Shown here: positions 14,096-39,118 of the stretch, piece after piece
Layout: the number at the start of each line of letters is the position of its first letter
How positions within the stretch are numbered: position 1 is the stretch's first letter
Source: Saprospiraceae bacterium
Lineage (GTDB): Bacteria; Bacteroidota; Bacteroidia; Chitinophagales; Saprospiraceae
DNA: 46,814 nucleotides
Direction: 5' to 3'
Assembly: GCA_024762995.1 (NCBI GenBank)
Contig: JANTGI010000008.1
Coordinates: 1-46,814 of the forward strand
The notes under the pieces: model-generated
Database searches by the model: none
Seen by the model: the letters and a program-made list of their open reading frames with translations, nothing else
What the model was told of the DNA's origin: nothing
Translations under genes and position numbers: made by a program

Positions 14096-14313
14096 GTTAC
14101 CGTTTAGGTGCTCCTGTTTTTAGGCAGAAAATAGGCATTTTCGTGTCTGATGAACCTGCCTTTGCCTTTTGATACGTAGATACAAGGCATTGTATCATCT
14201 TACGTGAGAAAAATTGGGCAAAAACAGGCCTGCCGGGGCAGGCAGGCCTGAAGGGGCAGGCAGGCGCAAAAAAGGCACTTTACGGCAAAAACTAGCCCTA
14301 CCTAAACAGTTAC
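14096..14313. repeat. MITE-like palindromic element, long form (copy A)
   Basis: Terminal inverted repeats: left GTTACCGTTTAGGTGCTCC, right (reverse complement) GTAACTGTTTAGGTAGGGC. Both continue as GTTTTT(A/G)... for about 30 bases. The interior contains a hairpin GATACAA-GGCA-TTGTATC (14179-14196) and a GC-rich module of CCTGCC/GGCAGG repeats (about 14226-14265). It fills most of the 462-base gap 13923-14384; the flanks hold nothing else I recognise. It has no coding capacity and no clear target-site duplication. Confidence 0.75.
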
Positions 14314-14384
14314 AATTGGTTAGATGGTAAATTCGGCTCATTTTATGTGAGTTGTTCAAAAATCTTTAAAATAGCCATAGTCCG

Positions 14385-15089
14385 ATGAATAAAACAGCAG
14401 TTATTTCCGGTGCCACCAAGGGGATTGGATTAGCCATAGCCCATGCTTTCGCAAAAGAAGGGTTTGATTTAGCCGTATGCTCTAGAAATCAGGAAGACTT
14501 AGACCTTTTTGCCCGTGCTTTCGCAAAAGACTACCCAAACTCTAAGGTATGGACAAAAGTGGCAGATTTGAGTAAAGTAAACCAAGTCAAGGATTTTGCC
14601 CGATTTGTACAAACTCAATTCCCCACAGTGGATGTATTGATTAATAATGCCGGTGTCTTTCTCCCCGGTGATATCTTAACTGAACAAGAAGGTACTTTGG
14701 AGTCACAAATTGAAACTAATTTGTACAGTGCTTATTATTTAACTCGAGAGTTGATTCCGGCGATACCAAAGCACGGACACATCTTCAATATGGCTTCAAT
14801 AGCCAGTTTTATGGCTTATCCGGGCGGTGGTAGTTACACCATTTCTAAATTTGCGATCCTGGGTTTTTCCAAGGTCTTGCGCGAAGAGCTAAAAAAACAA
14901 TACATCAAAGTCACCTCCATCATGCCCGGAGCGACTTGGTCTAACTCTTGGCAAGGCGATAATCTGCCCCCTTATGAAAGGCTAATGCCTCCTGAAGACA
15001 TCGCCACAATGGTCATCGCAGCTTGGCAACTGGGCCCTTCTTCTGTCGTCGAAGACTTGGTTATTCGCCCCCAGTTAGGAGACTTATAG
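14385..15089 (+). CDS. SDR family oxidoreductase
   Basis: 234 residues, the usual length of a classical short-chain dehydrogenase/reductase. The cofactor motif SGATKGIG (8-15), NNAG (87-90) and the catalytic tetrad Asn112, Ser138, Tyr151 and Lys155 are all present. The Arg34 after beta-2 (CSRN) favours NADP(H). It probably reduces a 3-oxoacyl or other carbonyl substrate; the substrate cannot be told from sequence. It is a single gene, convergent with the cytochrome-like gene 36 bases away. Confidence 0.88.
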   Translation: MNKTAVISGATKGIGLAIAHAFAKEGFDLAVCSRNQEDLDLFARAFAKDYPNSKVWTKVADLSKVNQVKDFARFVQTQFPTVDVLINNAGVFLPGDILTEQEGTLESQIETNLYSAYYLTRELIPAIPKHGHIFNMASIASFMAYPGGGSYTISKFAILGFSKVLREELKKQYIKVTSIMPGATWSNSWQGDNLPPYERLMPPEDIATMVIAAWQLGPSSVVEDLVIRPQLGDL

Positions 15090-15125
15090 ATTTTAACCCT
15101 TAAATTGAATGCATCTCACTCAACA

Positions 15126-15845
15126 TCAATTATCCGGAGCCCCTTGCTCGACCCAATTTTTTATTTTTGCCTTCGCACAATCCGTTATGCCATTTCCGGA
15201 AGGTGGCATGGGGGAGTAGCCGTTAAGGTGGGCGGCAGTACCATATAGTTTTCCATTATTGGCAAATGTCGCAACGCTCTGATAAGCATCCAAAGACACA
15301 TTTCCACTAGGCGTGTTACCGCTATGGCATCCGGTACAACTATTGCTCAGGATAGGTACTATATCATTCGCATAAGACACGTTCACAGAATCACATCCTA
15401 CGTTTGCATCGCAAAAATACTCTTTGGCGCCTTGATTTATCCACTTTTTGATAATGGCTTTTTGGTCATTAGTCAAAGACGGTCTTGGATTCGGGGGCAT
15501 CTTTTCCTCGCCGGACTCAAATAAGACTTTATACATCTTGCTTTGATTCGGCTGATTAGGCTTTACCTTTCCGGTAGAAAGAGTGGTGGAAAAGCTAGAA
15601 TAATTTATCCCCTCTTTATGGGTAGATGCATCATGACATCCGGAAACTGCACAATTGGACATAAGTATAGGCTGCACATCACGAAAATAATAGACAATGC
15701 CCGGCTCACAGGGTGTGCCCGAATTATGAATAGTATCTTGCGGATTAGTTGATACATTTTCGATAATCGGGTCATGCTTACACGATACTCCCCAAAGAGA
15801 TACCAAAGCAATAGAGACTAAAAGTAAAAGCTGAAATATACGCAT
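15126..15845 (-). CDS. c-type cytochrome-like lipoprotein (two heme sites)
   Basis: 239 residues with a lipoprotein signal ending in VSC (Cys22). Two related halves follow. The first has Cys65-x4-Cys70-His71 and a distal Met in EKMPPNP; the second has a normal Cys170-Thr-Gly-Cys173-His174 and a distal Met in SPMPPSG. The KWINQGA and NWVEQGA segments close each half, as in the planctomycete-type cytochrome C domain (PF07635). It is likely a periplasmic electron carrier or a hemoprotein of unknown partner. The CX4CH spacing in the first half is unusual for heme lyase substrates. Confidence 0.82.
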   Translation of the reverse strand: MRIFQLLLLVSIALVSLWGVSCKHDPIIENVSTNPQDTIHNSGTPCEPGIVYYFRDVQPILMSNCAVSGCHDASTHKEGINYSSFSTTLSTGKVKPNQPNQSKMYKVLFESGEEKMPPNPRPSLTNDQKAIIKKWINQGAKEYFCDANVGCDSVNVSYANDIVPILSNSCTGCHSGNTPSGNVSLDAYQSVATFANNGKLYGTAAHLNGYSPMPPSGNGITDCAKAKIKNWVEQGAPDN

Positions 15846-15943
15846 GATTCAATTTTTTGGTCACCTAAATTCGATGAAGGTTTGGAGCTTCAAAAGCTTC
15901 GTAGAAGTCAAGTTTGTAGATAAAAAAAAACGGTTTAACAAAC

Positions 15944-16000
15944 GTAACTGTTTGGGTGTCCATGTTTTTAGGCAAAAACTTGCCCTACCTACATAGTTAC
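15944..16000. repeat. MITE-like palindromic element, short form (copy C)
   Basis: 57 bases. The left end GTAACTGTTTGGGTGTCC and the right end (reverse complement GTAACTATGTAGGTAGGGC) meet through GTTTTTAGGCAAAAAC. Each half closely resembles the matching end of copy A, so this looks like the same element without its interior. Confidence 0.75.
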
Positions 16001-16079
16001 TAAAAACAAAGAAACCCTTTTTTCTTCCAAAAATTGGACGTGCTTGCGACATTTTGGGCATTTTACTCATTATCTACCT

Positions 16080-17126
16080 TCAATACCAATAAGGCAAGCG
16101 CTTGCGCAAAAAACCTAGAAAAATACTAAAACCTAAATAGGCCAAGCAATAGATTGGTCCCCAAAAATGAGCAATAGCCCATCCCACGAGCAAGTAAAAC
16201 AAAGGAAAAACAACCCCAATAAAAACAAGGCGCATCGTATAAATAAAAGCAGGGTCTTTTATCTTCTTTTTGCGACTCCACCATAAGGACAAAGGCACAA
16301 TATTGAGCACCAAAAACAAATAATAAATAAACAAACCCCATAAGGTCTTTTTTCTCCTTGGCCCCTTGCTTCCGCTAAATTGTTTTGATTTTACGAGTTC
16401 ATTGGCCGCAGCAGGATCCAAAAAATCAATGCCTTTGGCGACTAAATGATCATGTATCTCCTTGTAATCTTCTTTGGGTTCAATATGTGTTGTCAGTGTT
16501 TTTACTTGAGCGGAGACGGCAGCATTCAACCGACTCATTGACTCTTTGGGATGAGCCGGATCGTAGTACTCTCTGACATTAATGGGCTCTCCAAAGATGA
16601 TATTAACCTGCGCAGAAAAACGTTGCCGGCTATCATAATTCAGACCTGTTGGGATGAGTTTTAGGGGCAAATTTGGATTTTTATCCAATGCCAAAAAGGC
16701 AATTTCAATAAAACCATTCTTAAAATTGCGAACTCGCCTATCCGTATGATGATTGCCTTCCGGAAAAATTTGCAATACTCCACCTTCTAGGAGTAGGTCT
16801 GCGCATTGTTCGATGATCTCAGCGTTTTTGGCCAACTGGTCCCGCCCATCCCGCAATCTATAAATCGGAAACATATTGATACTTCGTAAATAACGACCAA
16901 TCAAGGGATTTTTAAATACATCCGCACGTGTCATAAAGTGCACCTGACGCTTAATCAATGGAGCAATCATAATGGCATCTACCAATGCATTTTGATGATT
17001 GGGCAAAAAGATAACCGGATCTTTTTTAGGGATTCTATTCTTGTTGATTAAATTCCGTTTCCGAAAGGTAAAGAAAAGAATTACGACAACAACTATTTTC
17101 GTCACATAATACGACACATTCTTCAT
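16080..17126 (-). CDS. 1-acylglycerol-3-phosphate acyltransferase family (PlsC-like)
   Basis: 348 residues. An N-terminal membrane segment (residues 7-20) precedes motif I NHQNALVD (His44, Asp50), motif II around FPIYRLRDG and motif III FPEGNHHTD (121 on). The C-terminal ~90 residues hold two or three transmembrane helices not found in minimal PlsC. It should acylate lysophosphatidic acid or a related lipid. Motif I is HX5D here, whereas PlsC enzymes normally have HX4D; the extra residue gives a NHQNALxD form. It stands alone on the minus strand. Confidence 0.85.
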   Translation of the reverse strand: MKNVSYYVTKIVVVVILFFTFRKRNLINKNRIPKKDPVIFLPNHQNALVDAIMIAPLIKRQVHFMTRADVFKNPLIGRYLRSINMFPIYRLRDGRDQLAKNAEIIEQCADLLLEGGVLQIFPEGNHHTDRRVRNFKNGFIEIAFLALDKNPNLPLKLIPTGLNYDSRQRFSAQVNIIFGEPINVREYYDPAHPKESMSRLNAAVSAQVKTLTTHIEPKEDYKEIHDHLVAKGIDFLDPAAANELVKSKQFSGSKGPRRKKTLWGLFIYYLFLVLNIVPLSLWWSRKKKIKDPAFIYTMRLVFIGVVFPLFYLLVGWAIAHFWGPIYCLAYLGFSIFLGFLRKRLPYWY

Positions 17127-17164
17127 TTAATTCGCTTTGTATGGTTCGCCGTTTATTTTTATTT

Positions 17165-17378
17165 GGTTCAACCGTTCAACTGTTCAATCGTTGAGTCTGC
17201 TGTAATAAGTCGATAGTTCGCTTACTTGCCAAATTTTGTTTCGTTCGCTGTTTTTTTTATTTTGTTCAAGCGTGCAATCGTTAAACTGTTAAACCTGCCC
17301 GTAGCAGGCGGCCTGAATTAATTGATAATCAATTAGTTACAAAAATCGGTTGACCGATTGCACAGTTGAACAATTTAA
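17165..17378. repeat. decayed inverted-repeat region
   Basis: This lies in the 368-base gap 17127-17494. GTTCAACTGTTCAATCG (17174-17190) recurs inverted at 17355-17371 with one mismatch, and a related direct copy (TTCAAGCGTGCAATCG) lies at 17265-17280. Between them are a perfect palindrome TAATTGATAATCAATTA (17319-17335) and a small CCTGC/GCAGG hairpin (17294-17308). It may be a remnant of a non-coding mobile element. No gene or promoter was seen in the gap. Confidence 0.5.
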
Positions 17379-17494
17379 CAAAATATCCCAAAACCAAATA
17401 ATATTCTACTAAACAAGAGCCAATATTCCAAGATGAACTTTTTACAGTGGATTTATCGTTAAACCGTCAGACCGAAATACCTACATTTAAATCA

Positions 17495-18409
17495 CTAAGC
17501 CGAGACCATTTTAGTATCCGGTGTTTTATTAGACCAGTAATAAGCCAGAGCCAAGCCTGACACGATGTCCCACACTCCCCAAAAAGCAGCCAATAGCATC
17601 ATGCCTCCGAGTCCGTCAAAAAATTCAAAAATGAGTGCCATTCCAAGAGCGGAGTTTTGGATGCCGGTTTCAATCGCAATTGTTCGCCGATCATTTTGAG
17701 CTAACTTAAATCCCGTTGCCGTAAGATACCCCAATAAGTACGCCAACAGATTGTGCCCAATCACCAAGAAAAGAACAAAATGGATATAACCCATAAAAAT
17801 GTCAAAATTTCCTGAAAAGGCAATCACCACAAACGCCAAAAAGACGACTATCGAAATAGGCTTTAGTAGCTTACTAATCTTATCTGCTATCTTGGGTTGA
17901 TATTGCCTGACTAGCATACCGGCGACCAAAGGCGCTCCCATGATAATGGCGATGAGCCTGTATAGCTTATAAGGATCTAACGCCACTTCCTTTAAAATAG
18001 CCCGAGTCGGTGGATATAGACTGCCCCAAAAATGAAAATTAAACGGGGTCATCACCACTGCCACCAACGTCGCAAAAGCCGTTAAACTCACGGACAACGC
18101 CGCATTGCCCTTTGCCAACTTACTCAAAAAATTAGAAATATTACCTCCGGGACAAGCTCCTACCATTATCAAACCTAAAGCAATACTAGGCATCGGCTTC
18201 ACAAAATAAACAATCAAAAAAGTCAACAAAGGCATCAAAACAAACTGCGATAATACTCCGGCAAATAGAATCTTTGGCTTTTGGAGCAAGCGCTGAAAAT
18301 CACTCACCCTAATATCTAATGCCACCCCAAACATAATGACGGCCAGAGTTATATTCAATGCCAATAAGTCGCCCTGCTCAAAATGTATTTTTACTTGATC
18401 TAACTCCAT
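17495..18409 (-). CDS. bile acid:sodium symporter family transporter
   Basis: 304 residues, nearly all hydrophobic, with about 8-10 membrane helices. The two crossover motifs of the ASBT/NTCP fold are visible: GACPGGNISNFLSKLAKGN and the ETGIQNSALGMAL helix that carries the Na-site residues. It should take up an organic anion with sodium; bile acids themselves are an unlikely natural substrate. It starts 5 bases after the acyl-CoA ligase gene, so the pair likely forms an uptake-and-activation operon. Confidence 0.88.
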   Translation of the reverse strand: MELDQVKIHFEQGDLLALNITLAVIMFGVALDIRVSDFQRLLQKPKILFAGVLSQFVLMPLLTFLIVYFVKPMPSIALGLIMVGACPGGNISNFLSKLAKGNAALSVSLTAFATLVAVVMTPFNFHFWGSLYPPTRAILKEVALDPYKLYRLIAIIMGAPLVAGMLVRQYQPKIADKISKLLKPISIVVFLAFVVIAFSGNFDIFMGYIHFVLFLVIGHNLLAYLLGYLTATGFKLAQNDRRTIAIETGIQNSALGMALIFEFFDGLGGMMLLAAFWGVWDIVSGLALAYYWSNKTPDTKMVSA

Positions 18410-18414
18410 ACCGA

Positions 18415-19974
18415 TTATGCGTCTTTTAATTCTTGACGAAGCACCTTCTTCAGTAATTTGCCGGTGGCACTCATGGGCAAGCTTGGGCGAATCTCTACCA
18501 TTCTTGGGTACTTATAGGCGGCCAGCTCTTCTTTCGTAAAATGAATAAGCTCTTCAGCCGTTGCAGAATGACCATCTTTTAGTACCACATAGGCTTTTAC
18601 TTCTTCGCCTTTTTCCTCGTCCGGTACGCCAATTACCGCTACTAGTGAAACCGCCGGATGCTTCATCATTACATCCTCTACTTCTCTCGGATAGACATTC
18701 AACCCGCCACGTATGATCATATCTTTTATCCTATCCACAATAAAAAAATCTCCGTCTTCATCCATGATTGCAATATCGCCGGAGTGCATCCAACCATTAC
18801 GCAATGCCTTGGCATTTGCTTCAGGTTTCTTGTAATAACCCTTCATCACGTTGTGACCGCGATAGACAATCTCCCCCTTTTCACCCACAGGAACCGTGTG
18901 GTCATGCTCATCTACCAGCTTGACCTCTACTCCCCATACAGCGGAACCGATGGAACCCGGTTTCCGCTTTCGAGTCAATTTATTAAAGGTGACCACCGGC
19001 GACCCTTCAGACATCCCATAACCTTCTAAAATCGGCACTCGAAATTTCTCTTCAAAATCCGTCAATACTTTTACCGGTAGAGAGGCCCCTCCCGAGACAG
19101 CCACCCGCATATACTGAGCAATAGTAGAAATATCATCTGCCGAAATCTTGGCGTTGGTCAGCGCCCAATACATCGTCGGGACGCCGGCAAAAAAGGTAAC
19201 TTTTTCCTTGAGTAGGAGACCAAACACGTTTTCCGGCGTAAATCTCGGCAATAATACATTGGTCGAACCCGCTAACACACCTGCGTTCATCTGTACCGAT
19301 TGACCAAATATATGAAACAAAGGCAAAACCGTTAACATAATATCTTCAGGCACTATCCGTATCATATCCCGAACCATGATGGCATTCATCAATAGGTTAG
19401 AATGACTTAACTCCGCCCCCTTGGGATGTCCCGTAGTCCCTGATGTATAAATAATCACAGCGGTGTCATTCTCTTGGGTCTGCCGAGTATCAAAAACAGG
19501 AGAAGCCCCATTCATTAACATCCCTAATGTTTCTGTTTTCCCGAAAGGGGATGGGGCGCCGGGATTTCCTGTAATCGTAAAAAATTGTTGGCATGAATCG
19601 ACTTGCGTAAATCCTTCATAACCTTGTGCGCCCATAGGTAAGGTGTCAGTGCCTTCAAAACAAAAATACGCCTTAGCCTCGCTGTCTTCCAAGTGATAGG
19701 CCACCTCATTATGTTTTAGTAAGACACTCAGCGGCACCACAACCGCTCCCGCTTTCAATATGCCAAAATATACGATTGGAAAATAGGGCAAATTCAAGCA
19801 ACTCAAGGCCACTTTATCTCCTTTTTGTATCCCGCGCGCTACTAAGGCATTTGCCACTTGGTTGGCCGCCCCATTAACTTGAGCAAAATTAAGTCGAGTG
19901 TCACCAAATATAAACGCTTCTTTGGCAGGCCTTTCTTTGGCAGAATCTTCAAGAATAAAGGCTAAGTTCATCAT
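18415..19974 (-). CDS. long-chain fatty acid-CoA ligase, AMP-binding
   Basis: 519 residues, typical of class I acyl-CoA synthetases. Motifs: TSGTTGHPKG (177-186), GYGMSE (318-323), HSGD (397-400), DRIKDMIIRGGLNVYP and the terminal catalytic Lys506 (ATGKLLKK). It should adenylate an acyl acid and load it onto CoA. The ATG at 19974 or the adjacent one at 19971 are both plausible. A -7-like box TATCTTTC lies 30 bases upstream. It is followed 5 bases later by the symporter gene. Confidence 0.92.
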   Translation of the reverse strand: MMNLAFILEDSAKERPAKEAFIFGDTRLNFAQVNGAANQVANALVARGIQKGDKVALSCLNLPYFPIVYFGILKAGAVVVPLSVLLKHNEVAYHLEDSEAKAYFCFEGTDTLPMGAQGYEGFTQVDSCQQFFTITGNPGAPSPFGKTETLGMLMNGASPVFDTRQTQENDTAVIIYTSGTTGHPKGAELSHSNLLMNAIMVRDMIRIVPEDIMLTVLPLFHIFGQSVQMNAGVLAGSTNVLLPRFTPENVFGLLLKEKVTFFAGVPTMYWALTNAKISADDISTIAQYMRVAVSGGASLPVKVLTDFEEKFRVPILEGYGMSEGSPVVTFNKLTRKRKPGSIGSAVWGVEVKLVDEHDHTVPVGEKGEIVYRGHNVMKGYYKKPEANAKALRNGWMHSGDIAIMDEDGDFFIVDRIKDMIIRGGLNVYPREVEDVMMKHPAVSLVAVIGVPDEEKGEEVKAYVVLKDGHSATAEELIHFTKEELAAYKYPRMVEIRPSLPMSATGKLLKKVLRQELKDA

Positions 19975-20004
19975 ATGTCAATCGTTTTTTTTTATTTAAA
20001 GCCT

Positions 20005-20012
20005 GAAAGATA
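20005..20012 (-). promoter_or_regulatory. -7-like promoter box TATCTTTC (minus strand)
   Basis: One mismatch to TAnnTTTG, positioned 30 bases before the ligase ATG. Confidence 0.4.
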
Positions 20013-20084
20013 GTAAAAAAAAGTGACTACGAAACATTGTGTGTATAACATCGTGTCTCCTTTTCAAAATTTTGGTCAATTCAA

Positions 20085-20112
20085 ACTCCATAGGAGTGAC
20101 ACCTTTGTCGCC
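20085..20112. repeat. REP-like short palindrome plus conserved tail
   Basis: ACTCC-ATA-GGAGT (20085-20097) forms a small hairpin, followed by GACACCTTTGTCGCCC. The reverse complement of the tail recurs nearly intact at 41654-41668 (GGGCGACAAGGTG). Together these suggest a dispersed short repeat. It lies in the intergenic gap 19975-20236. Confidence 0.4.
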
Positions 20113-20236
20113 CGTTCAAATTTTTTCTTAATCAAGGCGGATTTTGGAGGCATAGCAGGTTATGACGACCACTAGCCCTGTCTGGAATATTGTTTTTGTG
20201 CAATCTGTTATATACACCGAAACATTTGGCTGCCAA

Positions 20237-21511
20237 TCAAGACAAAGTCAAATATAAAAAGAAAACCGAAAATCCTCCCAAAAACAGTATGCCCAACCAA
20301 CTCAGCACCCGCATCCAGGCCGGTGGCCGAGCTCCTTGCGGAAAATCTTTAGCCGTCACCAGCTGAAAATTTACCACTGCAACAAAGGGCGCAATCAAAA
20401 ACGAAATGGTGGTAGCCAAATCTACCAAAGCCTTAAAACCCTTTGGATTATGTTGCCAAAAAAGCATATAGTACAATATGCCAAATGCGCCTAACAGCAA
20501 AATAACAATCGCCCCATTATAGAATTTTTGGTCATTGAGCGCTTCCTTTGCTTCCTTTCGATTTAAAAACAACAACTCTGCCGTACGCTCCAGCACACGA
20601 GCATAACCATCCATTACCGAAATAGACGTTCCAAACATAATAGAAAAAGCAGAAGCGGCAACTATCCAATAACTCCAAGCACCAATCGTCTGGGTGTACA
20701 TCTCAACCACTTGATTGGCAAATACCGCACTTGAACCGGCCATTTGTGTGCCTGTGTCATACATCAAATAAGCCCCTAAAGTCACAAAACAAATAGACAA
20801 CAATGCAGTCGCGATATACCCAAAGTTGAAATCAAACAAACTTTCTTTCAAGGTGGGGTGATACCCCGTTTGCTTGATGCGCTCTACCGTCCATAGACTA
20901 GTCCAAGCAGACATGTCCACTGCCGTAGGCATCCACCCCATCAAGGCAATTAAAAACAGGATGGTCGCATCATCAGACCAGTTGATGTCGGGAAGAAAAT
21001 CCGCTTGCTTTGCCTGTGGCCCATGGATTAGCGCCAGGACGAAAGCCAATATGGTACTCAATAATAAGACGCCGCCAATCACCTTAATCAAAGAATCCAA
21101 CGTTTTATACTGCCCAACAACCAATAGCACCAAACCAAACAAAAACAAACCAATGGTCACCCACAGCAAATTCCCGATGCCAAATAAATTATCCAAAAAA
21201 CCCGCCGTGACGACTCCGACCGCCGCCATCACAAAAAACATCGACGCAATCGTCAAGATAAAATATCCCCACAATACCCATTTTCCCATCTTGTAATACC
21301 CATCTATCAGACTTTCTCCTGTCGCATTCGCATACCGAGTTGCATAGTTAAAAAAAGGATATTTTAGTAGGTTGGCCAACAAAATCAAGCCCAAGAGCCC
21401 AAATCCATACATCGCTCCTGCCCGAGTGGATTGTACCAAATGAGACACCCCAATAGCCATCGAAGCAAAAATAATCCCCGGCCCAATCGTTTTCAAAAGA
21501 TTCGATTTCAT
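20237..21511 (-). CDS. divergent Nramp-like transporter
   Basis: 424 residues with about 11 membrane helices and the overall Nramp/APC layout (GPGIIFASMAIG near the start, GAMYGFGLL after helix 1). Classical Nramps have the metal-ligand motif DPGN in helix 1 and MPH in helix 6. Here the aligned positions read GVSHLV and MPTAVDMS, so neither DPGN nor the methionine of MPH is kept in its usual form. The usual reading would be a divalent metal importer, but the substrate is uncertain. A TACATTTG box lies 15 bases upstream of the ATG. Confidence 0.85.
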   Translation of the reverse strand: MKSNLLKTIGPGIIFASMAIGVSHLVQSTRAGAMYGFGLLGLILLANLLKYPFFNYATRYANATGESLIDGYYKMGKWVLWGYFILTIASMFFVMAAVGVVTAGFLDNLFGIGNLLWVTIGLFLFGLVLLVVGQYKTLDSLIKVIGGVLLLSTILAFVLALIHGPQAKQADFLPDINWSDDATILFLIALMGWMPTAVDMSAWTSLWTVERIKQTGYHPTLKESLFDFNFGYIATALLSICFVTLGAYLMYDTGTQMAGSSAVFANQVVEMYTQTIGAWSYWIVAASAFSIMFGTSISVMDGYARVLERTAELLFLNRKEAKEALNDQKFYNGAIVILLLGAFGILYYMLFWQHNPKGFKALVDLATTISFLIAPFVAVVNFQLVTAKDFPQGARPPAWMRVLSWLGILFLGGFSVFFLYLTLS

Positions 21512-21526
21512 ACCTTTTTGTTTTCA

Positions 21527-21534
21527 CAAATGTA
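21527..21534 (-). promoter_or_regulatory. -7 promoter box TACATTTG (minus strand)
   Basis: Exact TAnnTTTG match 15 bases before the Nramp-like ATG (21509-21511). The region between here and mtaB also carries the short MITE-like element D. Confidence 0.6.
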
Positions 21535-21544
21535 GTAAAAAAAC

Positions 21545-21602
21545 AGAACTGTCTAGGTGCCCCTGTCTTTAGGTAAAAACTTGCGGATGCCTAAACATTT
21601 AC
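21545..21602. repeat. MITE-like palindromic element, short form (copy D)
   Basis: 58 bases, the same size as copy C. Left end AGAACTGTCTAGGTGCCCC, right end (reverse complement) GTAAATGTTTAGGCATCCGC; the centre contains CTTTAGGTAAAAACTTGC, matching the centre of copy C. It lies between the divergent Nramp-like and mtaB promoters. Confidence 0.65.
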
Positions 21603-21702
21603 CAAGCAAAACTACTGAAACGCTTCTCAAGAAAATCAATATCATGTACTCAGACCCCTTCCCGGGAAATTCGCCGCCTTGTATCAACAATTTTTTTTCC
21701 CT

Positions 21703-21710
21703 TATCTTTG
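21703..21710 (+). promoter_or_regulatory. -7 promoter box TATCTTTG for mtaB
   Basis: Exact TAnnTTTG match with CTTG (21679-21682) 20 bases upstream as -33. The box ends only 8 bases before the mtaB ATG (21719), so the message would start almost at the codon. Confidence 0.7.
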
Positions 21711-21718
21711 CAAACCTT

Positions 21719-23600: not shown

Positions 23601-23611
23601 GCGCAACCCTA

Positions 23612-23947
23612 TCAAAATCGCTTTTTTAGCGCAAGCTCCGTCGCTACCATCGGAGAAATAATCAACGCCACGAATAAGCCAACAAACGGAATCGCTAAAT
23701 TATCTCTGCCCACTCCCGGAAGATACGGAGCCGCTAGACCCAAGGCGACCAAACCCAAGCCGGCCCACTGGAAAGATATCGCCGAATAACGCTGGGCAAA
23801 ATCCCATGCTTTTTGGCTACTGCGTGCTCGCTTCGTATGGTAGCCTGCCCGGTTCGTAATTTCTTTTTTGGGACGAAGCTTGGACAGCCAACCCATCGCA
23901 AAATAAAAAATACCCGCTAAATAAACCACCAACAGTAAGTTGTCCAT
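23612..23947 (-). CDS. SdpI/YhfL-like small membrane protein
   Basis: 111 residues with about three transmembrane helices. The central NRAGYHTKRARSSQKAWDFAQRYSA segment fits the SdpI-family signature (GxRTxxxxxSxxxWxxAxRxxG). B. subtilis SdpI is an immunity and signalling protein, but most family members have no known role. It is convergent with the TetR gene, 11 bases apart. Confidence 0.7.
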   Translation of the reverse strand: MDNLLLVVYLAGIFYFAMGWLSKLRPKKEITNRAGYHTKRARSSQKAWDFAQRYSAISFQWAGLGLVALGLAAPYLPGVGRDNLAIPFVGLFVALIISPMVATELALKKRF

Positions 23948-25614: not shown

Positions 25615-25630
25615 GTAACTGTTTAGGTAC
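25615..25630. repeat. solo end of the MITE-like family (copy E)
   Basis: GTAACTGTTTAGGTAC matches the terminal repeat of copies A and B exactly, but no partner end was found downstream. It may be a decayed half element. The rest of the 233-base gap after fumC holds only the terminator. Confidence 0.4.
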
Positions 25631-29786: not shown

Positions 29787-30297
29787 TCAACTACAGTCCA
29801 GTATTTTTCGATTTATATTCGTGGTCATCATCCAGTTATTGATACTCAAGCAGATTCCTATTGAGTTAGCCAACTTTCGGTTGCTTATTTTTCTTTACCC
29901 CTTGTTTATTATTTTAATGCCAACCCAAAGCCCCAAGCAATTATTGATATTTTTGGGGTTTTTGATAGGGATTATTTTAGATGTTTTTTATGATTCGCCG
30001 GGAGTTCATGCGGGTGCGGCGGTATTTACCGGATATATTCGAGATTTTTCGTTGCGGTTGTTTGGGGTCGATTTAGACAAGGCGAAGTCGTTTACTCCGT
30101 CTATCGCCCAAATTGGCTTGGGTAAGTTTGCGCAAGTAGCGGCCTTCATTTTATTTTTTCATATTTTTGTATATTATATCTTTGACGTCTTTACTTTCGT
30201 TTACTTAGGAGAAATATTAATCAAAACGGTAGGAAGTTTTATTGTTTCTTATCCGTTAGTACTAGCGTATGCTTTGATTTTTAACTCAAAAAAATGA
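29779..30297 (+). CDS. mreD: rod shape-determining protein MreD
   Basis: 172 residues, five or so transmembrane helices, with the family segment GFLIGIILDVFYDSPGVHAGAAV. The position between mreC and PBP2 supports the call, since MreD is poorly conserved in sequence. The start overlaps mreC by 8 bases; the stop overlaps PBP2 by 4 (ATGA). Confidence 0.92.
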   Translation: MNNQLQSSIFRFIFVVIIQLLILKQIPIELANFRLLIFLYPLFIILMPTQSPKQLLIFLGFLIGIILDVFYDSPGVHAGAAVFTGYIRDFSLRLFGVDLDKAKSFTPSIAQIGLGKFAQVAAFILFFHIFVYYIFDVFTFVYLGEILIKTVGSFIVSYPLVLAYALIFNSKK

Positions 30298-32162: not shown

Positions 32163-32694
32163 TGAAGTGACCATTTCTGCCATATTCGCAGTCGCAGAAA
32201 ATGGGGTCATCGGGCGACACAATGAAATCCCTTGGTACCTGCCGGCCGATTTTAAGTATTTTAAGCAGATGACCGTGGGCAGTCCTATTATTATGGGACG
32301 TAAGACTTTTGACTCCATTGGAAGGCCTTTACCCAAACGGCATAATATCATCATCTCCAATAATCGATCTCTGAGTATTGCCGGTTGTAGTGTCGTCCAC
32401 AGCTTAGAGCAGGCGATTGGTTTGGCGAAAGCAGAAAACCCGAAAGAAATTTTTATTGCGGGAGGAGCGACCTTGTATGTGGCGGCTATGGAATATTTGG
32501 ACCGAATTTATCGAACGATTGTGCATATCTCGCCGATAGGAGATGCTTTTTTTTCCATCTCGAATGAGTCGGACTGGGCGATACTCTCTTCTAATTATCA
32601 CCCGGCCGATAATAAAAATCTAGTCCCTTTCAGCTTTCAAGTATTGGAGCGCAAGAAAAGATCTAACAAGGGCAAGGAAATAATTGCCGGCTAA
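32152..32694 (+). CDS. folA: dihydrofolate reductase
   Basis: 180 residues. Start MKNNEVTISAIFAVAENGVIG with the GVIGRHNEIPW substrate loop, and MGRKTFDSIGRPLP for NADPH. I prefer the ATG at 32152 over the TTG at 32140. It overlaps the PBP2 stop by 11 bases (ATGAAAAATAA), so it is translationally coupled to the elongasome operon. It reduces dihydrofolate to tetrahydrofolate. Confidence 0.94.
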   Translation: MKNNEVTISAIFAVAENGVIGRHNEIPWYLPADFKYFKQMTVGSPIIMGRKTFDSIGRPLPKRHNIIISNNRSLSIAGCSVVHSLEQAIGLAKAENPKEIFIAGGATLYVAAMEYLDRIYRTIVHISPIGDAFFSISNESDWAILSSNYHPADNKNLVPFSFQVLERKKRSNKGKEIIAG

Positions 32695-32718
32695 GAAACA
32701 GTCAAAATAAACAAAACA

Positions 32719-33321
32719 ATGGCTCCTGAGTTGCTCATTATATTTACAAAAAATCCGGTATTGGGTCGGGTGAAAACGCGGTTAGCGAAGACCATTGGCG
32801 CCGAACCCGCACTAAAAATATTTAAAAAACTTTTAGCGCAAGCGGCGAAAACGGCGCTATCTTGGTCCGGTGATGTGTGGGTATTTTATGCGGATTTTCT
32901 TCCGAAAAAAGATTTATGGTCTCCGGTCGCCGACAAAGTATTTTTGCAACAGGGAGAAGACTTGGGGGAACGAATGAAATATGCCTTTGAGCAAGGTTTC
33001 AAAGGCTATAAAAAAGTAGTACTAATAGGTACCGATATTCCTTCTATTTCCAAGGAAGTAATCGAAGAAGCATTTAGAAAACTGGAGCAGAAGGATATGG
33101 TTTTAGGGCCAACTTATGACGGAGGCTATTACTTGATAGGCATGAATGCACCCAATTATTATGTTTTTGAAAAAATGGCTTGGAGTACGCCTACTGTTTT
33201 GGAAGAAACAATAGACAAGATTCATGAACAGGAGCAAGACTTCTCACTGACACCGCGCTTGGTTGATGTAGATAACGAATCGGATTTAGTGGGATTCGAA
33301 TGGTTGCTCCAAGATGAGTAG
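32719..33321 (+). CDS. TIGR04282/DUF2064 glycosyltransferase-like protein
   Basis: 200 residues with the DUF2064 pattern: IIFTKNPVLGRVKTRLAKTIG at the start, LIGTDIPSIS in the middle and GPTYDGGYYLIGM near the end. The family is GT-A-like and often annotated as arsenosugar biosynthesis glycosyltransferase; no ars genes are nearby, so the substrate is open. It starts 24 bases after folA and may end the operon. Confidence 0.85.
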   Translation: MAPELLIIFTKNPVLGRVKTRLAKTIGAEPALKIFKKLLAQAAKTALSWSGDVWVFYADFLPKKDLWSPVADKVFLQQGEDLGERMKYAFEQGFKGYKKVVLIGTDIPSISKEVIEEAFRKLEQKDMVLGPTYDGGYYLIGMNAPNYYVFEKMAWSTPTVLEETIDKIHEQEQDFSLTPRLVDVDNESDLVGFEWLLQDE

Positions 33322-33511
33322 TTCTCTCGAAAGGAAATACCTGACTTTCGTCAAAAAAAAAAGACATATTTTTTATCTTTATTCATTCTTTATAAAAAAT
33401 TAACACCAAGCGTAATCAATGAAAAAACAAGTAGCTTTGAATTGTAATAATCTATATGTATAACGCAGTCATGTTAACCATCATTTAAAAGTGTTTGTGG
33501 TGGGCAATACC

Positions 33512-33543
33512 CTTGATTTTTAGTGCGTTTTACCCTATATTTG
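33512..33543 (+). promoter_or_regulatory. promoter CTTG-N20-TATATTTG
   Basis: CTTG (33512-33515) and an exact -7 box TATATTTG (33536-33543) are 20 bases apart, the usual spacing. It lies 76 bases before the small ORF at 33620 and is in the 489-base gap 33322-33810. Confidence 0.65.
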
Positions 33544-33619
33544 AACAGCAAAAAGTGTCCTTCTAACTCTTGCATTTTTTGTGTGAACACTATCCAAGAA
33601 ACTCAAAAACACTAGAACC

Positions 33620-33691
33620 ATGATCATCCTGGCAGCCCTCTTATTACTCATGCTTATTGCCTTAAAATACCAGCAATATACCGAGGCATAG
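33620..33691 (+). CDS. candidate 23-residue membrane peptide (KdpF-like in form)
   Basis: ATG ... TAG encodes MIILAALLLLMLIALKYQQY plus TEA. A single hydrophobic helix of about 14 residues ends in a charged, polar tail. It has its own promoter (TATATTTG at 33536) and a leader of about 70 nt. KdpF is a peptide of similar length and start (MIIL...), but no kdpA, kdpB or kdpC is near. It may be an unannotated small membrane protein or a chance ORF. Confidence 0.35.
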   Translation: MIILAALLLLMLIALKYQQYTEA

Positions 33692-33723
33692 GTCTTCACA
33701 TCGGGAACTATATTCGACCATAA

Positions 33724-33755
33724 TTTGGTTGTTTCGCAGAATTGACATACCTTCG
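33724..33755 (+). promoter_or_regulatory. putative recJ promoter TTTG-N20-TACCTTCG
   Basis: TTTG (33724-33727) and TACCTTCG (33748-33755), 20 bases apart; the second departs from consensus only by C for T in the penultimate position. It supports transcription of recJ from about 33760. Confidence 0.5.
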
Positions 33756-33810
33756 ACGGTGGAATTGAATCGCAATGTCTATTTTGATGGCATTGCCTGT
33801 CATATCTGCT

Positions 33811-35553
33811 ATGAAAAAACAATGGAAATATAAACCCGTCGATACCTCTGCGGTCCAGGCACTCCAAGTCGAATTAGGAGTGAATGCCACCATGGCCAAG
33901 CTGCTTTATTTGCGTGGTGTAAAATCCAAAGAACAAGCCGATAAATTTTTTAACCCTTCCTTTGACGACCTTCATGACCCTTATCTACTCAAAGATATGG
34001 ATTTGGCGATTAGCCGATTAGAAACCGCTATTTCGAAAGGTCAAAGAATCTTACTCTACGGGGATTATGATGTGGACGGAGTGACTTCGGTAAGTTTATT
34101 GTACTCTTTTCTAAAACGATATACGGAGCATTTAGATTTTTACATTCCCGACCGATACAAAGAGGGCTATGGACTCACCTTACAGGGTGTTGATTATGCC
34201 AAACAAAATGATGTCAAGCTGTTGATTACCATGGATTGTGGGACAACGGCGTTAACACAAATTCAGGAAGCCAAGGCTAAAGGCATAGATGTCATTGTTT
34301 TAGACCATCATCTCCCCGTGGATGAACTCCCACCGACTGTGGCGCTCATTAATCCCAAGCAAACAGACTGCCCCTATCCCTTCAAGGATTTGAGTGGATG
34401 CGGGGTCACCTTCAAATTTGCGCAAGCCTATGCTGCTCATCTGGGCATGCCTAGACGTGCCTTGATACCGTTATTGGACTTTGTTGCGACAAGTATTGCT
34501 TGTGATTATGTCCCGATTGTTGGTGAAAATCGAATCCTAGCGACTTTTGGTTTGCACCAAATCAACCACAATACCAGAGTCGGCTTAAAAGCACTTATCG
34601 CCAGAACCAATTACACTTATCCTTTCTCCATTTCTGATATTGTTTTTGGGATTGGTCCTTATATCAATGCCGCAGGAAGACTGTCTGATGGAAAGGAGGC
34701 CGTTCGTTTATTGCTTGCAGAAGATTGGTTGGTTGCTTCGGAGTACGCCAATATCCTTCGGGAGCGCAACACACAACGACGTATTTTTGATCGTAAAAAC
34801 TTAGCCGAAGCCATCAAAGTCTGGGAAAGCAATGAACACCACTCCAAAGTGCCTATTGTGGTTCTTTTTCAGGCTAACTGGCACAAAGGGGTACTGGGCA
34901 TTGTGGCTTCAAGGATGGCCAAACACTACCATAAACCTGCTGTTATCATGTGTGAATCTAACGGTGAAATCGTTGCATCCGCCAGATCCACTCCAACCAT
35001 CGATATCCATGAATTACTAAAACAATCAGAGCATCTACTGACTACTTTCGGGGGGCATCCCAAGGCAGCAGGTTTTAGTATGCCTCCGGAAAATCTGGAA
35101 GCACTAACCCGAAATTTACTCCAGAGTATGCAAGGGGTTTCAGCCGCCCAACAAACGCCTACTTTATTTATTGATTCAGAGTTAGAACTGAAGGACATCA
35201 CGCCTAAGTTTATGGAAGAGTTGCATAAGTTAGCTCCTTTGGGTCCCGGCAACCCCAACCCTTTGTTTGTTTGCGAAAATGTCGAAGTCGCCGGCCCAAT
35301 AAGATATATCGAAAAAAATAGCATTCGTCTTTTGGTCGCCAAAGAGAACTCGAAGCGATTTAAGGCGGTAGGCTTTCGCAAAGGGGATTATATTGACCAA
35401 ATAAATAGCCAGGAGTTTGCGATGTGTTTTAAAATTATTGAAAGTGTTTGGAAAGGAGAAAAACAATTGCAACTTCAAATGAAAGACATCTTTGAAGGAG
35501 AAATTAAACAACCCCTTCCCATCTCTACTTCTGAGCTAAAGGAGGAGGAATAG
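33811..35553 (+). CDS. recJ: single-stranded-DNA exonuclease RecJ
   Basis: 580 residues from the ATG at 33811 (MKKQWKYKPVD, the usual RecJ opening). An in-frame ATG at 33775 adds 12 residues and is closer to the promoter box, so either start is possible. DHH-family motifs: GDYDVDG (84-90), MDCGTTA (141-147), LDHH (164-167) and AGRLSDG; the DHHA1 and OB-like C-terminal parts follow. It degrades ssDNA 5'-3' in recombination and repair. It is convergent with the envelope TPR gene, only 10 bases apart. Confidence 0.94.
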   Translation: MKKQWKYKPVDTSAVQALQVELGVNATMAKLLYLRGVKSKEQADKFFNPSFDDLHDPYLLKDMDLAISRLETAISKGQRILLYGDYDVDGVTSVSLLYSFLKRYTEHLDFYIPDRYKEGYGLTLQGVDYAKQNDVKLLITMDCGTTALTQIQEAKAKGIDVIVLDHHLPVDELPPTVALINPKQTDCPYPFKDLSGCGVTFKFAQAYAAHLGMPRRALIPLLDFVATSIACDYVPIVGENRILATFGLHQINHNTRVGLKALIARTNYTYPFSISDIVFGIGPYINAAGRLSDGKEAVRLLLAEDWLVASEYANILRERNTQRRIFDRKNLAEAIKVWESNEHHSKVPIVVLFQANWHKGVLGIVASRMAKHYHKPAVIMCESNGEIVASARSTPTIDIHELLKQSEHLLTTFGGHPKAAGFSMPPENLEALTRNLLQSMQGVSAAQQTPTLFIDSELELKDITPKFMEELHKLAPLGPGNPNPLFVCENVEVAGPIRYIEKNSIRLLVAKENSKRFKAVGFRKGDYIDQINSQEFAMCFKIIESVWKGEKQLQLQMKDIFEGEIKQPLPISTSELKEEE

Positions 35554-35563
35554 TTACCTTTCT

Positions 35564-37591
35564 TTACTCCAACAAATACCGTTGCAATTTTGGGTAAGCC
35601 TTAATGATGGCCGGTTCAATCCCTTTTGTGATGGGCTTGCCGGCGATATAAGGAATGATTCTAACGACCTTAAGATGATTTTGGTTAAGTTCTTCCGCCC
35701 ATTGCTGTGCAGTCTCTAAGGTCAAAAACCGACCAAATAACATTCGCCATTCCTCATTCACTAAATCAAAAGAGAAGTCATATTTATTAGTCGTTAGAAA
35801 AGACTTAAATAGGGAACTATCCGGAGCTAATTCAATTTTATATCGGAGCCCAAGTGGTGTTCTGGGCACGAAGCTGTACTTTTTGATGCCATTGATGGGA
35901 GTAATGGGCTTTTTGGGGTTATTTTTATATAAGATAATGGCTTCTAAATAACTACCCGGTTGGCTCGATTTTTTGGGTATCAGTAGCTGTTGAGAATAGT
36001 TAATGGATGTGTTAGGCGCATTGCTTTTCAAAAATGAAAGGAGCACCTTAGAGATCGGACTCAGACCAACACCGGAGCCTTTCTTAGAGGAGGTTGATTG
36101 GGTCATATTGACGACAAGCTCTGCTTGCGGGCGCTCATTCAGAATACGTGCCAGAGTACGCAATGCGGCAAACTGCGTACTATCCGGCATGATAACACCC
36201 AAGCCATATCGCTGAAACAATACCGGCTGTGCCACGATTACCGAAGTGTCATTATTTACTTCATTTTCCACATTTACCGTCATTACAACCTGATCTGATT
36301 GTTGTTCAAAAAACTGACCTTCGAAGATATCATACTTGCCCATAGATTCATGCCGGTTGGAGGAGAGGACAAAGTGCCAGCCATCATTTGCCATCTGAAA
36401 ATATTGATCGTCATCCGCAGAATTAATAGGAATGCCTAAATTTTTACTTTTATTCCATTTTTTTAGAATTGGGGAATAAGTTGACTTATAAATATCATCG
36501 CCACCGATGCCTGCCGGCTTGTTAGAAGAAAAATAAAGACCTCTGCGATTATTGGTCAAAAAAGGAAATTTTTCATCATAAGGACTATTGATATTCGGCC
36601 CCATGTTTATCGGTTCGGACCAACCATCCGCTGTTTTATTGGCAATAAATAAGTCATATCCCCCAAAACCTTCCAATCGGCGACTGGCAAAAATAACCAT
36701 GGTGTCCATAAAGAAAAATGGAGTCGCATCTCCTTTTTGCATGTCAAAGGGAATCTCTAGCAAATTGCCTGAAATTCGGTCTTTGCTACTGCTATCAAAA
36801 TAGTCTTCGTACAATAGGCCGGCATCTTTGGTATATCCTTTTTTGTAGTACATGCGCAATCCATCTCCACTAAAACCTATTACTTCATCAAATAAGGAGG
36901 TATTCAGTAGTCCGGACATGCGCTCTACGTGGTAGGCGGGTGTTATCTCCGCCACGTACATATCCGGATTGCGGTGCCCGTGTTTGTTGTCCACCTTGCC
37001 ATTATCACTCCTAAGCCCACCTAAAGCCCCTAGTCTATTGGATGAAAAATATAACTTACTCCGTTGCGAAAGAGGGCTATAAATTGGATGAAAGTCATTG
37101 TCTGTTGTATTGATTGGCTCAGGAAACCCTTCTAGGGTTGCCATAGGCGCTTGATTTTTGATGAGTAATCCGCTTTCGCAATTTCTTAACTTCGTTTTGA
37201 CCAACCCTTCAAAATCGCTGCGATTATTCTTTTTCAAAAACTCCTTATAAAGACCAGCCGCCTTCCGGAATTCTAACTTCCGATGGTACAAGTTGCCTAG
37301 GTAATAGACTACATTTGGGAATTGAGCCTTCCTTTTCTCGTAGATGATATTTAATACGGTTTCCGCTTCCAAAAGCCGGTTTAGGAATAAATAAGAGATA
37401 CCTAAGTGGTAATCCATCTCATAATCCGTAGGTCTTTCGCGAAAGCAATCTTCATACCGCTTAGCGGCCAATTCATAAAAACCATCTGCAAAAAAGGCGT
37501 CTCCTTCCGATTTTATCGATTTATAGGATTGACCCTTTCCTGCAAAGGGAAGCAGAAAAAACAAAATAAAAAAACAATAAATTAATCTCAT
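35564..37591 (-). CDS. TPR-PD40 propeller envelope protein with degenerate OmpA and SPOR-like parts
   Basis: 675 residues. Signal peptide (about 1-21), TPR region (about 25-125), PD40 propeller (about 165-425: YFSSNRLGALGG, FASRRLEGFGGYDLF, YFSSNKPAGIGGDDIY). About residues 458-540 resemble an OmpA domain, but the ligand residues of TDxxG and LSxxRA are lost (NMTQSTSS, LSPISK). About 600-650 look SPOR-like (WRMLFGRFLTLETAQQWAEEL). Likely a periplasmic scaffold of the envelope. It starts 9 bases after the E2 stop, so both are on one transcript. Confidence 0.82.
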   Translation of the reverse strand: MRLIYCFFILFFLLPFAGKGQSYKSIKSEGDAFFADGFYELAAKRYEDCFRERPTDYEMDYHLGISYLFLNRLLEAETVLNIIYEKRKAQFPNVVYYLGNLYHRKLEFRKAAGLYKEFLKKNNRSDFEGLVKTKLRNCESGLLIKNQAPMATLEGFPEPINTTDNDFHPIYSPLSQRSKLYFSSNRLGALGGLRSDNGKVDNKHGHRNPDMYVAEITPAYHVERMSGLLNTSLFDEVIGFSGDGLRMYYKKGYTKDAGLLYEDYFDSSSKDRISGNLLEIPFDMQKGDATPFFFMDTMVIFASRRLEGFGGYDLFIANKTADGWSEPINMGPNINSPYDEKFPFLTNNRRGLYFSSNKPAGIGGDDIYKSTYSPILKKWNKSKNLGIPINSADDDQYFQMANDGWHFVLSSNRHESMGKYDIFEGQFFEQQSDQVVMTVNVENEVNNDTSVIVAQPVLFQRYGLGVIMPDSTQFAALRTLARILNERPQAELVVNMTQSTSSKKGSGVGLSPISKVLLSFLKSNAPNTSINYSQQLLIPKKSSQPGSYLEAIILYKNNPKKPITPINGIKKYSFVPRTPLGLRYKIELAPDSSLFKSFLTTNKYDFSFDLVNEEWRMLFGRFLTLETAQQWAEELNQNHLKVVRIIPYIAGKPITKGIEPAIIKAYPKLQRYLLE

Positions 37592-37600
37592 AAAACCAAT

Positions 37601-38923
37601 TTAGATACCCTGATTGGGGTCAAATGCTTCCATATACGTCTTCAACGTATTGAGCATCGAACCACCTAGTGACCCATCTACTACTCGATGGTCATAGGAT
37701 AATGATAGGAACATCATGTGCCGGATTGCAATTACGTCCCCATATTCGGTCTCTAACACTGCCGGTTTTTTGCGTATCGCCCCTAAAGCCAATATGGCGA
37801 CTTGTGGCTGGGGGATAATCGGCGTACCCATGACATTACCAAATGTACCTACATTAGTAACGGTAAAAGTACCGCCCTGTATTTCATCCGGTTTCAATTT
37901 GTTGGCACGAGCACGTTGGGCCAAATCATTCACTTGTTTGGCGAGTCCCGGCAAACTTAATTGGTCAGCATTCTTTATCACCGGCACAATTAAATTGCCA
38001 TCCGGTAAAGCAGCGGCCATACCAATATTAATGTCCTTTTTGACCAGTAACTTCTCTCCTTCAACGGATATATTAATCATTGGGTGATCCAACAGTGCTT
38101 TTACGGTCGCTTGAATAAAAATAGGCGTAAATGTAATCTTATCTCCATAGCGCTCCACAAATAAATCCTTGTTCTTTGTACGCCATTTGACGATGTTCGT
38201 TACATCTACTTCGATATAGGAGGTGACATGCGGCGAAGTATGCCATGATTGAACCATGTGCTTGGCGATCAGTTTTCGCATTCGATCCATCTCAATTATC
38301 TCCACATTTCCGGAAGCAGATGTCTGTACCGGAGCAGAAGAAGCGACCTGAGCAGATGGCGATGGTGTGTGCACATGAGGAGTTGATGACGTCGATTTTC
38401 TATCTGACTTGATATAATTCAGGATATCTGTCTTGGTCACTCGATTATTCAGACCCGTACCCGGAATCCGGCTCAACTCTGCTTCTGTGACCCCTTCAGC
38501 CTTAGAAATACTGCGCACTAATGGAGAATAAAAACGATCTCCATTGGACGAAATGGTGGCTACTGCGGGAGTCGAATCGGACGCTACTGCTACTGCAGGT
38601 TCTTGGATAGCTGCTTTCCCATTTGATTCTTCCTTCGGCATTTCTACGACGGTCGGTGATGCTTCGGGCGCTACTTCTTCTCCTTCCGTAGCGATGACAG
38701 CGATGACCTTACCAATCTCCACGACCGTATCTTCTTCAAATAAGATCTCCGCAATGGTGCCTGCCACCGGAGACGGCACTTCAGAATCCACTTTATCGGT
38801 AGCAATTTCTAAAATCGGTTCATCCAACTCCACCGTATCACCGACCCCTTTGAGCCATTTAAGGATGGTTGCTTCGACTATACTTTCGCCCATTTTGGGC
38901 ATGACGAGTTCTACTTTTGCCAT
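37601..38923 (-). CDS. 2-oxo acid dehydrogenase E2 (dihydrolipoyl acyltransferase)
   Basis: 440 residues. Lipoyl domain with the modified Lys44 (EIATDKVDSEV), a variable Ala/Pro/Ser linker, a peripheral subunit-binding domain (SPLVRSISKAEGVTEAEL...GRVTKTDIL-like, residues about 133-170), and the catalytic domain with His412/Asp416 (SYDHRVVDGS). It moves the acyl group to CoA in the branched-chain or pyruvate-type complex. No E1 or E3 gene is nearby. The upstream gap holds MITE-like copy B. Confidence 0.93.
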   Translation of the reverse strand: MAKVELVMPKMGESIVEATILKWLKGVGDTVELDEPILEIATDKVDSEVPSPVAGTIAEILFEEDTVVEIGKVIAVIATEGEEVAPEASPTVVEMPKEESNGKAAIQEPAVAVASDSTPAVATISSNGDRFYSPLVRSISKAEGVTEAELSRIPGTGLNNRVTKTDILNYIKSDRKSTSSTPHVHTPSPSAQVASSAPVQTSASGNVEIIEMDRMRKLIAKHMVQSWHTSPHVTSYIEVDVTNIVKWRTKNKDLFVERYGDKITFTPIFIQATVKALLDHPMINISVEGEKLLVKKDINIGMAAALPDGNLIVPVIKNADQLSLPGLAKQVNDLAQRARANKLKPDEIQGGTFTVTNVGTFGNVMGTPIIPQPQVAILALGAIRKKPAVLETEYGDVIAIRHMMFLSLSYDHRVVDGSLGGSMLNTLKTYMEAFDPNQGI

Positions 38924-38942
38924 TTTATTTGATTGTTTTAGA

Positions 38943-39118
38943 GTAACTGTTTAGGTACCCGCAGGTTTTTGTCATAAAATGCCCTTTTTGCGCCTGCCTA
39001 CCCCTGTAGGCCTGCCTACCCCTGTAGCCTGCCTGCCCCTGTAGCCTGCCTGCCGCCTGCCCCTGCAGGGGCAGGCAGGTCTATGTTCCGTCAAAAACGG
39101 GAGTACTTAAACAGTTCT
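38943..39118. repeat. MITE-like palindromic element, long form (copy B)
   Basis: The left end GTAACTGTTTAGGTACCCGC and the right end (reverse complement AGAACTGTTTAAGTACTCCC) are inverted repeats, continuing as GTTTTTG(T/A)C. The interior is a GC-rich module of repeated CCTGCCTGCCCCTG-type units. The left 75 bases match the reverse complement of copy A's right side closely, including TTTTTGCGCCTGCCT. Confidence 0.75.

Follow-up and report, generated by a model that had tools for sequence, protein, structure and literature searches.

What moves, or else maintains, the short palindromic sequences that lie between the genes of a Saprospiraceae genome is the question addressed here. The stretch analysed (the window; 46,814 nucleotides) is contig C8 of a 3.68-Mb, 241-contig assembly (G000), and contains four such elements (A to D) and one solo end (E). 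An earlier note, made from the letters of the window alone, had described terminal inverted repeats on these copies and proposed that they are miniature inverted-repeat transposable elements (MITEs) moved in trans. The end search of the window and of fetched loci recovered the repeats as 14-bp ends (GTAACTRTTTAGGT), and we consider it highly probable that the copies form a new MITE family mobilised in trans by an IS66-family (ISBst12-type) transposase.

According to this model, a DDE transposase of that type, encoded by a single open reading frame (ORF), would recognise the 14-bp ends of the non-coding elements, and transposition would make an 8-bp target duplication that is mostly A+T-rich. 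Full-length elements are usually 163–164 bp long and nearly wholly self-complementary. Loss of the interior would give a 57–59-bp form consisting of two ends, and small palindromic modules, probably added to the interior later, would account for the greater length of A, B, and similar forms. Movement in trans is supported by the multi-copy occurrence, the 8-bp duplications, empty congener sites, and an IS66 element with identical ends.

Copy number and distribution

Copy A gave 52 blastn matches in its own genome and many ends were found in congeners, so the multi-copy family suggested by the earlier note does extend beyond the window. In G000, the end motif was found 260 times when up to 2 mismatches were allowed, and its reversed control 137 times, which indicates that many of these 2-mismatch matches are due to chance. 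At up to 1 mismatch, counts for the motif and the reversed-pattern control were 545 and 3 in G003, 324 and 9 in G002, 122 and 2 in G001, and 3 and 1 in G004.

A 164-bp copy was then compared with 100 genomes (its own included). Matches were obtained in G000, G001, G002, and G003, all of the same genus, with none in G004 (same genus, 79% complete) and a marginal 30-bp match in G061 (E 8.5e-4). A scan of named genomes using a looser pattern returned at least 104 stretches, and among the matches listed all were in three Saprospiraceae metagenome assemblies (JALVEF01 for G003, JALVCY01 for G002, and CAMZKG01 for G001); a stricter first end pattern had given 0 matches in the named genomes, being too strict. 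Nothing credible was found in plasmid, phage, and viral collections. The family is present in four of the five genomes of the genus, and is spread through one genus of Saprospiraceae.

Identities among 160–166-bp copies were higher within genomes (medians 0.88–0.93) than between them (0.81–0.86), which suggests that variants were amplified separately in each species. Many element ends in G002 and G003 were located close to contig ends (a few hundred bases away or less), and the family therefore probably causes many assembly breaks.

Target-site duplications and mobility

Facing end pairs no more than 450 bp apart were collected from the window and the fetched loci, yielding 160 pairs (21 from G000, 11 from G001, 25 from G002, and 103 from G003) that include some nested or false pairs, all retained in the counts. 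The flanking 8 bp were perfectly duplicated at 65 of the 160 pairs and duplicated with one mismatch at 18 more (83 in total), compared to 0.18% and 0.70% (0.88% in total) when flanks were paired between different elements. Pairs with no more than one mismatch made up 43 of 59 at 160–172 bp, 22 of 50 at 28–62 bp, 8 of 22 at 77–111 bp, 4 of 7 at 121–140 bp, and 6 of 22 at 182 bp and longer.

Identical copies were also found at different sites, each site with its own duplication sequence. Two sets of four identical 163-bp copies had perfect duplications at seven of eight sites and a one-mismatch duplication at the other, and nine identical 58-bp copies, at nine sites in G003, had four perfect duplications, one with 1 mismatch, and four with 2–6 mismatches. 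The family is recently active in G003, and the 58-bp form itself appears to be mobile, which would imply direct movement rather than repeated deletion in place.

Placement relative to genes was assessed for the 62 elements with duplications whose flanks extended for 450 bp or more. Of these, 12 interrupted a stop-free frame of 150 codons or longer, versus 69% of 2,475 random positions; gene insertions thus seem to occur, while being strongly under-represented.

An IS66-family element with matching ends

Eight complete 1,483-bp IS66-family insertion sequence (IS) elements, with GTAACTATTTAGGT at both ends, were identified in G530, a Saprospiraceae genome from another genus. All 14 MITE end bases are matched in this IS, and a perfect 8-bp duplication was present at seven of the eight complete copies; two further IS loci are cut by contig ends. 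The single ORF encodes an IS66-family transposase (PF03050, 4.3e-41; DUF6444, 2.2e-13; zf-IS66, 6.6e-7; NF033517, 1.3e-83), and G530 also has other IS66 transposases, ~39–40% identical. The autonomous element with matching ends that the earlier note had in mind was found in this form, complete solely in another genus.

A candidate trace of such an element was also detected in the window's genus. In G003, the genome richest in the MITE, a contig begins inside an ORF reading away from an exact GTAACTGTTTAGGT end (L281:303-316). This ORF (~85 codons, running off the contig) matches DUF6444, which forms the N-terminus of the G530 transposase, with an E-value of 1.5e-10 that passes the family cut-off, and its IS-type end has G at position 7, the same as 191 of 206 G003 ends. 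An IS66 transposase is very probably the mover of the elements in this genus, and is our predicted driver.

The string GTAACTRTTTAGGTRNYC was scanned against 396 genomes of the order (a draw that excluded G002, G003, and G530) and, besides G000 and G001, occurred solely in G251 (same family) and in G160 and G188 (another family). Seven contigs of G251 are broken off 94 bp inside an element whose coding sequence nearly reaches the end. Among 398 family genomes, the 27-residue C-terminus of this coding sequence was matched in three (G251 itself, G530, and G643), with no Pfam or NCBIfam family match for these residues alone and none in the plasmid collection; it was identified as IS66 because the G530 homologue is 69% identical over 26 residues. 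Given that G251 has no PF03050 match, the main part of a multi-copy IS can be missing from assemblies of this kind. A broken IS66 transposase start (NF033517, 2e-12, below the cut-off) adjoins the same end in G188. Three IS66 starts in G160 are located ~230–245 bp inside an exact copy of it, and two of these three share their first 20 nt (GTAACTATTTAGGTACTCTT) with the end of a resident 196-bp MITE. This separate MITE of G160 and G188 (e.g., L229:1501-1696 and L243:1501-1696) has the same 14-bp ends as the window family and perfect 8-bp duplications in seven of eight examined copies, whereas its interior is unrelated by eye.

Classical IS66 elements are given 20–30-bp ends starting GTAAGCG and 8-bp repeats in the available portion of PMC11946415. 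In that of PMC12898284, ISDge4, an ISBst12-group element whose transposition has been seen, is described with ends GTAACTGCTCAGCA / GTGACTACTCAGCA, an 8-bp repeat, and one 449-aa ORF. The ends studied here have the GTAA start and 8-bp duplication of IS66, and begin GTAACT instead of GTAAGCG; based upon the ISDge4 end and repeat length, unlike the classical form, they were assigned to the ISBst12 type. The GTAAC start is common to the window elements and the ISBst12 group, whereas the former lack a transposase and, outside G160, share little beyond the end. Given that no IS66 transposase is encoded by the window elements, they were not classed as IS66 members.

Other candidate partners were rejected. 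A resident classical IS66 element on a short contig of G000 (C202; L005) has the GTAA start in common with the MITE and differs beyond it, its ends being GTAAGCGTCCGAGCAA. In a search by end geometry of 181 sequences (844 kb of window and fetched loci, overlapping and biased towards MITE sites), no pair 450–6000 bp apart had a duplication with 1 mismatch or less. Three long end pairs in 20 stretches of G000 had 2 mismatches (L211, L213, and L218), and L211 and L213 hold host-like ORFs; ORFs within an end pair ~3.96 kb apart on G003:C18 were likewise host-like by eye. Separately, facing ends 851 bp apart surround a host-like gene at L025:301-1151 (G000:C1:22243-23093), with no matching duplication by eye.

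Sites A to C in congeners

The congeners are different species, in which exact single-copy target sites are unreadable, and sites were therefore compared through their flanks. At site B, both flanks aligned in G001, G002, G003, and G004, and the element was absent from all four, with no end better than 4 mismatches. At site A, the flanking genes and 67–82 bp of left intergenic sequence aligned to G001, G002, and G004, after which no element followed in any of the three and the sequence up to the next gene did not align. The G002 site (L182, ~base 2344) contains GTAACTATTTAAAC, which matches 11 of 14 bases of the end about at the start of copy A, and end-like strings in G001 and G004 were no better than chance. 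Site C in G001 consists of highly diverged intergenic sequence. A blast search for empty sites among the fetched loci mainly returned self matches, neighbouring copies, and repeats, without any clear empty site. The empty sites that the earlier note expected of a mobile family were thus seen at B, and at A with the reservation of the end-like string in G002.

Alternative explanations

It is possible that the elements are instead retained as RNA or DNA hairpins with a role in the cell (terminators, mRNA ends, or binding sites for RNases or proteins), their mobility being secondary. Copies A and B fold strongly (−83.7 kcal/mol, z −5.5, and −79.3 kcal/mol, z −7.9, respectively, versus shuffled sequence), terminator-like matches around A number 3 where 0.5 are expected, and insertions are mostly outside long reading frames, all of which would suit such a role. 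Paired changes were examined in an alignment of 39 hand-picked long copies: nine copies whose orientation was unclear were first removed, six of these were restored after inspection by eye, and from the other 41 copies eight were omitted. Across 52 consensus pairs, 98.2% of cells were paired, compared to 93.8% in shuffles and 42–53.2% in slid controls, and 13 of the 52 pairs had two-sided changes (81 two-sided cells versus 11 one-sided). Paired changes preserve the hairpin shape.

An excess of two-sided cells of this kind is unexpected under RNA selection, where G-U steps are common, and can be explained by template-switching arm homogenisation (as treated in the available part of PMC8604942) or by few master copies. 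Further pair types barely exceeded the count in shuffles (39 of 500 reach it), and there were 0 Rfam matches at gathering score in the window, L055, and L017. Placement is also not conserved among congeners, and copies bear target duplications. We infer that the paired changes reflect DNA-level upkeep, or the spread of few palindromic master copies, rather than being proof of RNA function. The RNA-hairpin role that the earlier note offered as its second option is not decided by the strong fold, because the predominance of two-sided changes suits DNA-level causes too; a cell role as the main reason for retention is nonetheless unlikely. A tentative idea, doubtful in our judgement and less so than a cell role, is that the hairpin shape is selected for mobility or for a DNA-structure function, in which case paired substitutions would preserve the arms and the 58-bp hairpin would be the irreducible mobile unit.

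Alternatively, the family could be moved by a different DDE transposase that makes 8-bp duplications, with a convergent match to the IS66 end. Within the genus, no complete IS66 element bearing these ends was detected, and the shared stretch is little over 14 bp outside G160. Against this, each end of the G530 IS agrees with the MITE end at all 14 bases, the duplication lengths are equal, and IS66-type coding sequence adjoins the same end in G003, G188, G160, and G251. A different transposase is accordingly judged very unlikely.

Several observations nevertheless weigh against an IS66-driven MITE family. At 77 of the 160 pairs (some of which are false or nested), the 8 bases on either side differed at two or more positions, and the window copies themselves have no clean target duplication, with 4, 5, 3, and 4 of 8 bases mismatched at A, B, C, and D, respectively; the target-site duplications sought by the earlier note were therefore seen, with a length of 8 bp, at copies elsewhere and not at A to D. 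The candidate ORF of G003 is 45% identical to the G530 transposase over 44 residues (E 0.001; tblastn 1.4e-4) and had no match to the NCBIfam IS66 model, which starts further in. In G000, no IS66 element bearing these ends was found; PF03050 had two matches there, an intact one, whose ends were read as GTAAGCGTCCGAGCAA, and a 145-aa frame. The G530 transposase as query found nothing in G000, G001, and G002, and PF03050 found nothing in G001–G004. Outside G160, the sequence common to IS and MITE hardly extends past the 14-bp end, and descent of the MITE from an IS66 element is therefore conjectural. Finally, 8 of 300 shuffles of the 131-bp stretch at site A in G002 matched the end as well as GTAACTATTTAAAC (3 mismatches), so this string is due to chance or is possibly a decayed end; the insertion of copy A may be comparatively recent, or it may be older and mostly lost in G002.

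Repetitive extragenic palindromic (REP) sequences spread by a TnpA-REP (REP-associated tyrosine transposase, RAYT) enzyme are also palindromic, mostly intergenic, and multi-copy, yet this explanation is extremely improbable because the elements have inverted ends and 8-bp target duplications, to our knowledge not a feature of REP/RAYT systems (a judgement made without any RAYT gene search).

Size forms and interior modules

Lengths of 163 and 164 bp were the commonest among long elements (50 of the 160 pairs). The 58-bp form in G003 reads like a 163-bp form whose two ends have been brought directly together, so the earlier description of C and D as A with the interior removed is true of the class, and C and D can exist as seen given that this form retains just two ends.

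The CCTGCC/GGCAGG module (as searched motifs) is confined within the window to A and B, the long copies to which the earlier note had assigned it. A loose motif test, which an end reading AGGTAGG can also trigger, detected it in 12 of 21 G000, 2 of 11 G001, 0 of 25 G002, and 9 of 103 G003 sampled elements, and the module does not characterise long copies in general.

Other interiors and arrangements were also recorded. Two G002 elements (L068:2195-2334 and L072:174-336) have another palindrome, GGGACGCACGGCCGTGCGTCCC, in place of the central one. Larger elements of 308–386 bp with other interiors were found at L215:101-473 and L207:3235-3542 in G000, each with an 8-bp duplication with 1 mismatch, and at L060:158-543 in G003, which has none; these are possibly captured or nested repeats. 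Two identical 164-bp copies are separated by 11 bp in G002 (L038:1501-1839). At the start of contig G003:C11 (L062:1-1300), tandem units of ~380 bp contain one element end per unit, and are either a real array or an assembly artefact.

Comparison with known elements

In the available text of PMC6382973, bacterial MITEs are ~50–600 bp in size, which places 58 bp near the lower end. MITEAba12 is described there as 111–114 bp long, with a 9-bp duplication, ISAba12 as its partner, and intact duplications at 40% of 90 copies. As far as that text goes, the present family is similar in being non-coding, in having ends that match an IS thought to drive it in trans, and in having duplications intact at a fraction of copies; it is unlike MITEAba12 in having several size classes (57–59 to >200 bp), an 8-bp duplication, and an IS66 partner. 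MITEs of Cardinium, in the accessible part of PMC9769881, are likewise multi-copy bacterial MITEs with a parental IS, although the parent there is ISCca4 and the sole IS66 element tabulated is single-copy. In the accessible parts of the literature searched, including PMC9769881, PMC6382973, PMC3189936, and PMC6053426, no IS66-driven MITE was described.

The family is ordinary in kind; what is striking is its copy number, its size range including unusually small 58-base copies, and the upkeep of the palindrome. It links abundant palindromes of environmental Saprospiraceae to the ISBst12 branch of IS66. Transposition in the ISBst12 group is called insufficiently characterised in the available portion of PMC12898284, and the 58- and 163-bp copies are natural substrates with which to ask what an IS66 transposase requires.

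Copies within the window

The end GTAACTGTTTAGGT at up to 3 mismatches had 11 matches in the window, compared to a mean of 3.63 and a maximum of 9 in shuffles (0 of 100 reached 11), and all nine ends of A to E are among the 11. The five features, all annotated on the forward (+) strand, are located where the earlier note had placed them, except that D starts at 21546 rather than 21545.

Copy A (14096–14313) is a 218-bp long form flanked by genes for an MlaE permease (−) and a short-chain dehydrogenase (+). Its right end is exact (GTAACTGTTTAGGT on the − strand) and its left end is GTTACCGTTTAGGT; its palindromic CCTGCC/GGCAGG module (14229–14266, no strand assigned) is terminator-like on the − strand. 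Copy B (38943–39118), a 176-bp long form between an E2 acyltransferase gene and cinA, has four CCTGCCTRCC units in its interior, where a repeated CCTGCCTRCCCCTG module and a GGCAGGCAGG arm span 38993–39079 (no strand assigned). Copy C (15944–16000) is a 57-bp short form of two joined ends, in the same size class as 57–59-bp copies of G001, G002, and G003. Copy D (21546–21602), also a short form, has both ends degraded, the left one reading GAACTGTCTAGGT. Solo end E (25615–25630) contains an exact 14-bp end, with no partner end within 450 bp at 3 mismatches in the window. The window copies look like old, decayed members of the MITE family.

Copies in the window are non-coding (57–218 bp, with no long ORF in any), as had been noted, and A to E are placed between the longer ORFs. 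Their description as lying between genes holds with respect to these ORFs and is qualified by two overlaps: a listed GTG ORF from 21557 overlaps copy D solely through a probably spurious start codon, and a TTG ORF (38544–38954), opposite another gene, enters B by 12 bases.

Unpaired ends such as E are common in G000, since in 12 of 20 stretches around ends that were exact or had 1 mismatch, the end lacked a partner within 450 bp; ORFs near these 12 are ordinary host-like genes by eye. Additional 3-mismatch end matches were found in the window at 15216–15229, inside an ORF and probably due to chance, and at 5988–6001, possibly a decayed end. The stretch at 5988–6022 (GTAACCGTTTTGATGCCCCTGTT) lies between divergent ORFs and is 69% identical to copy A over 35 nt.

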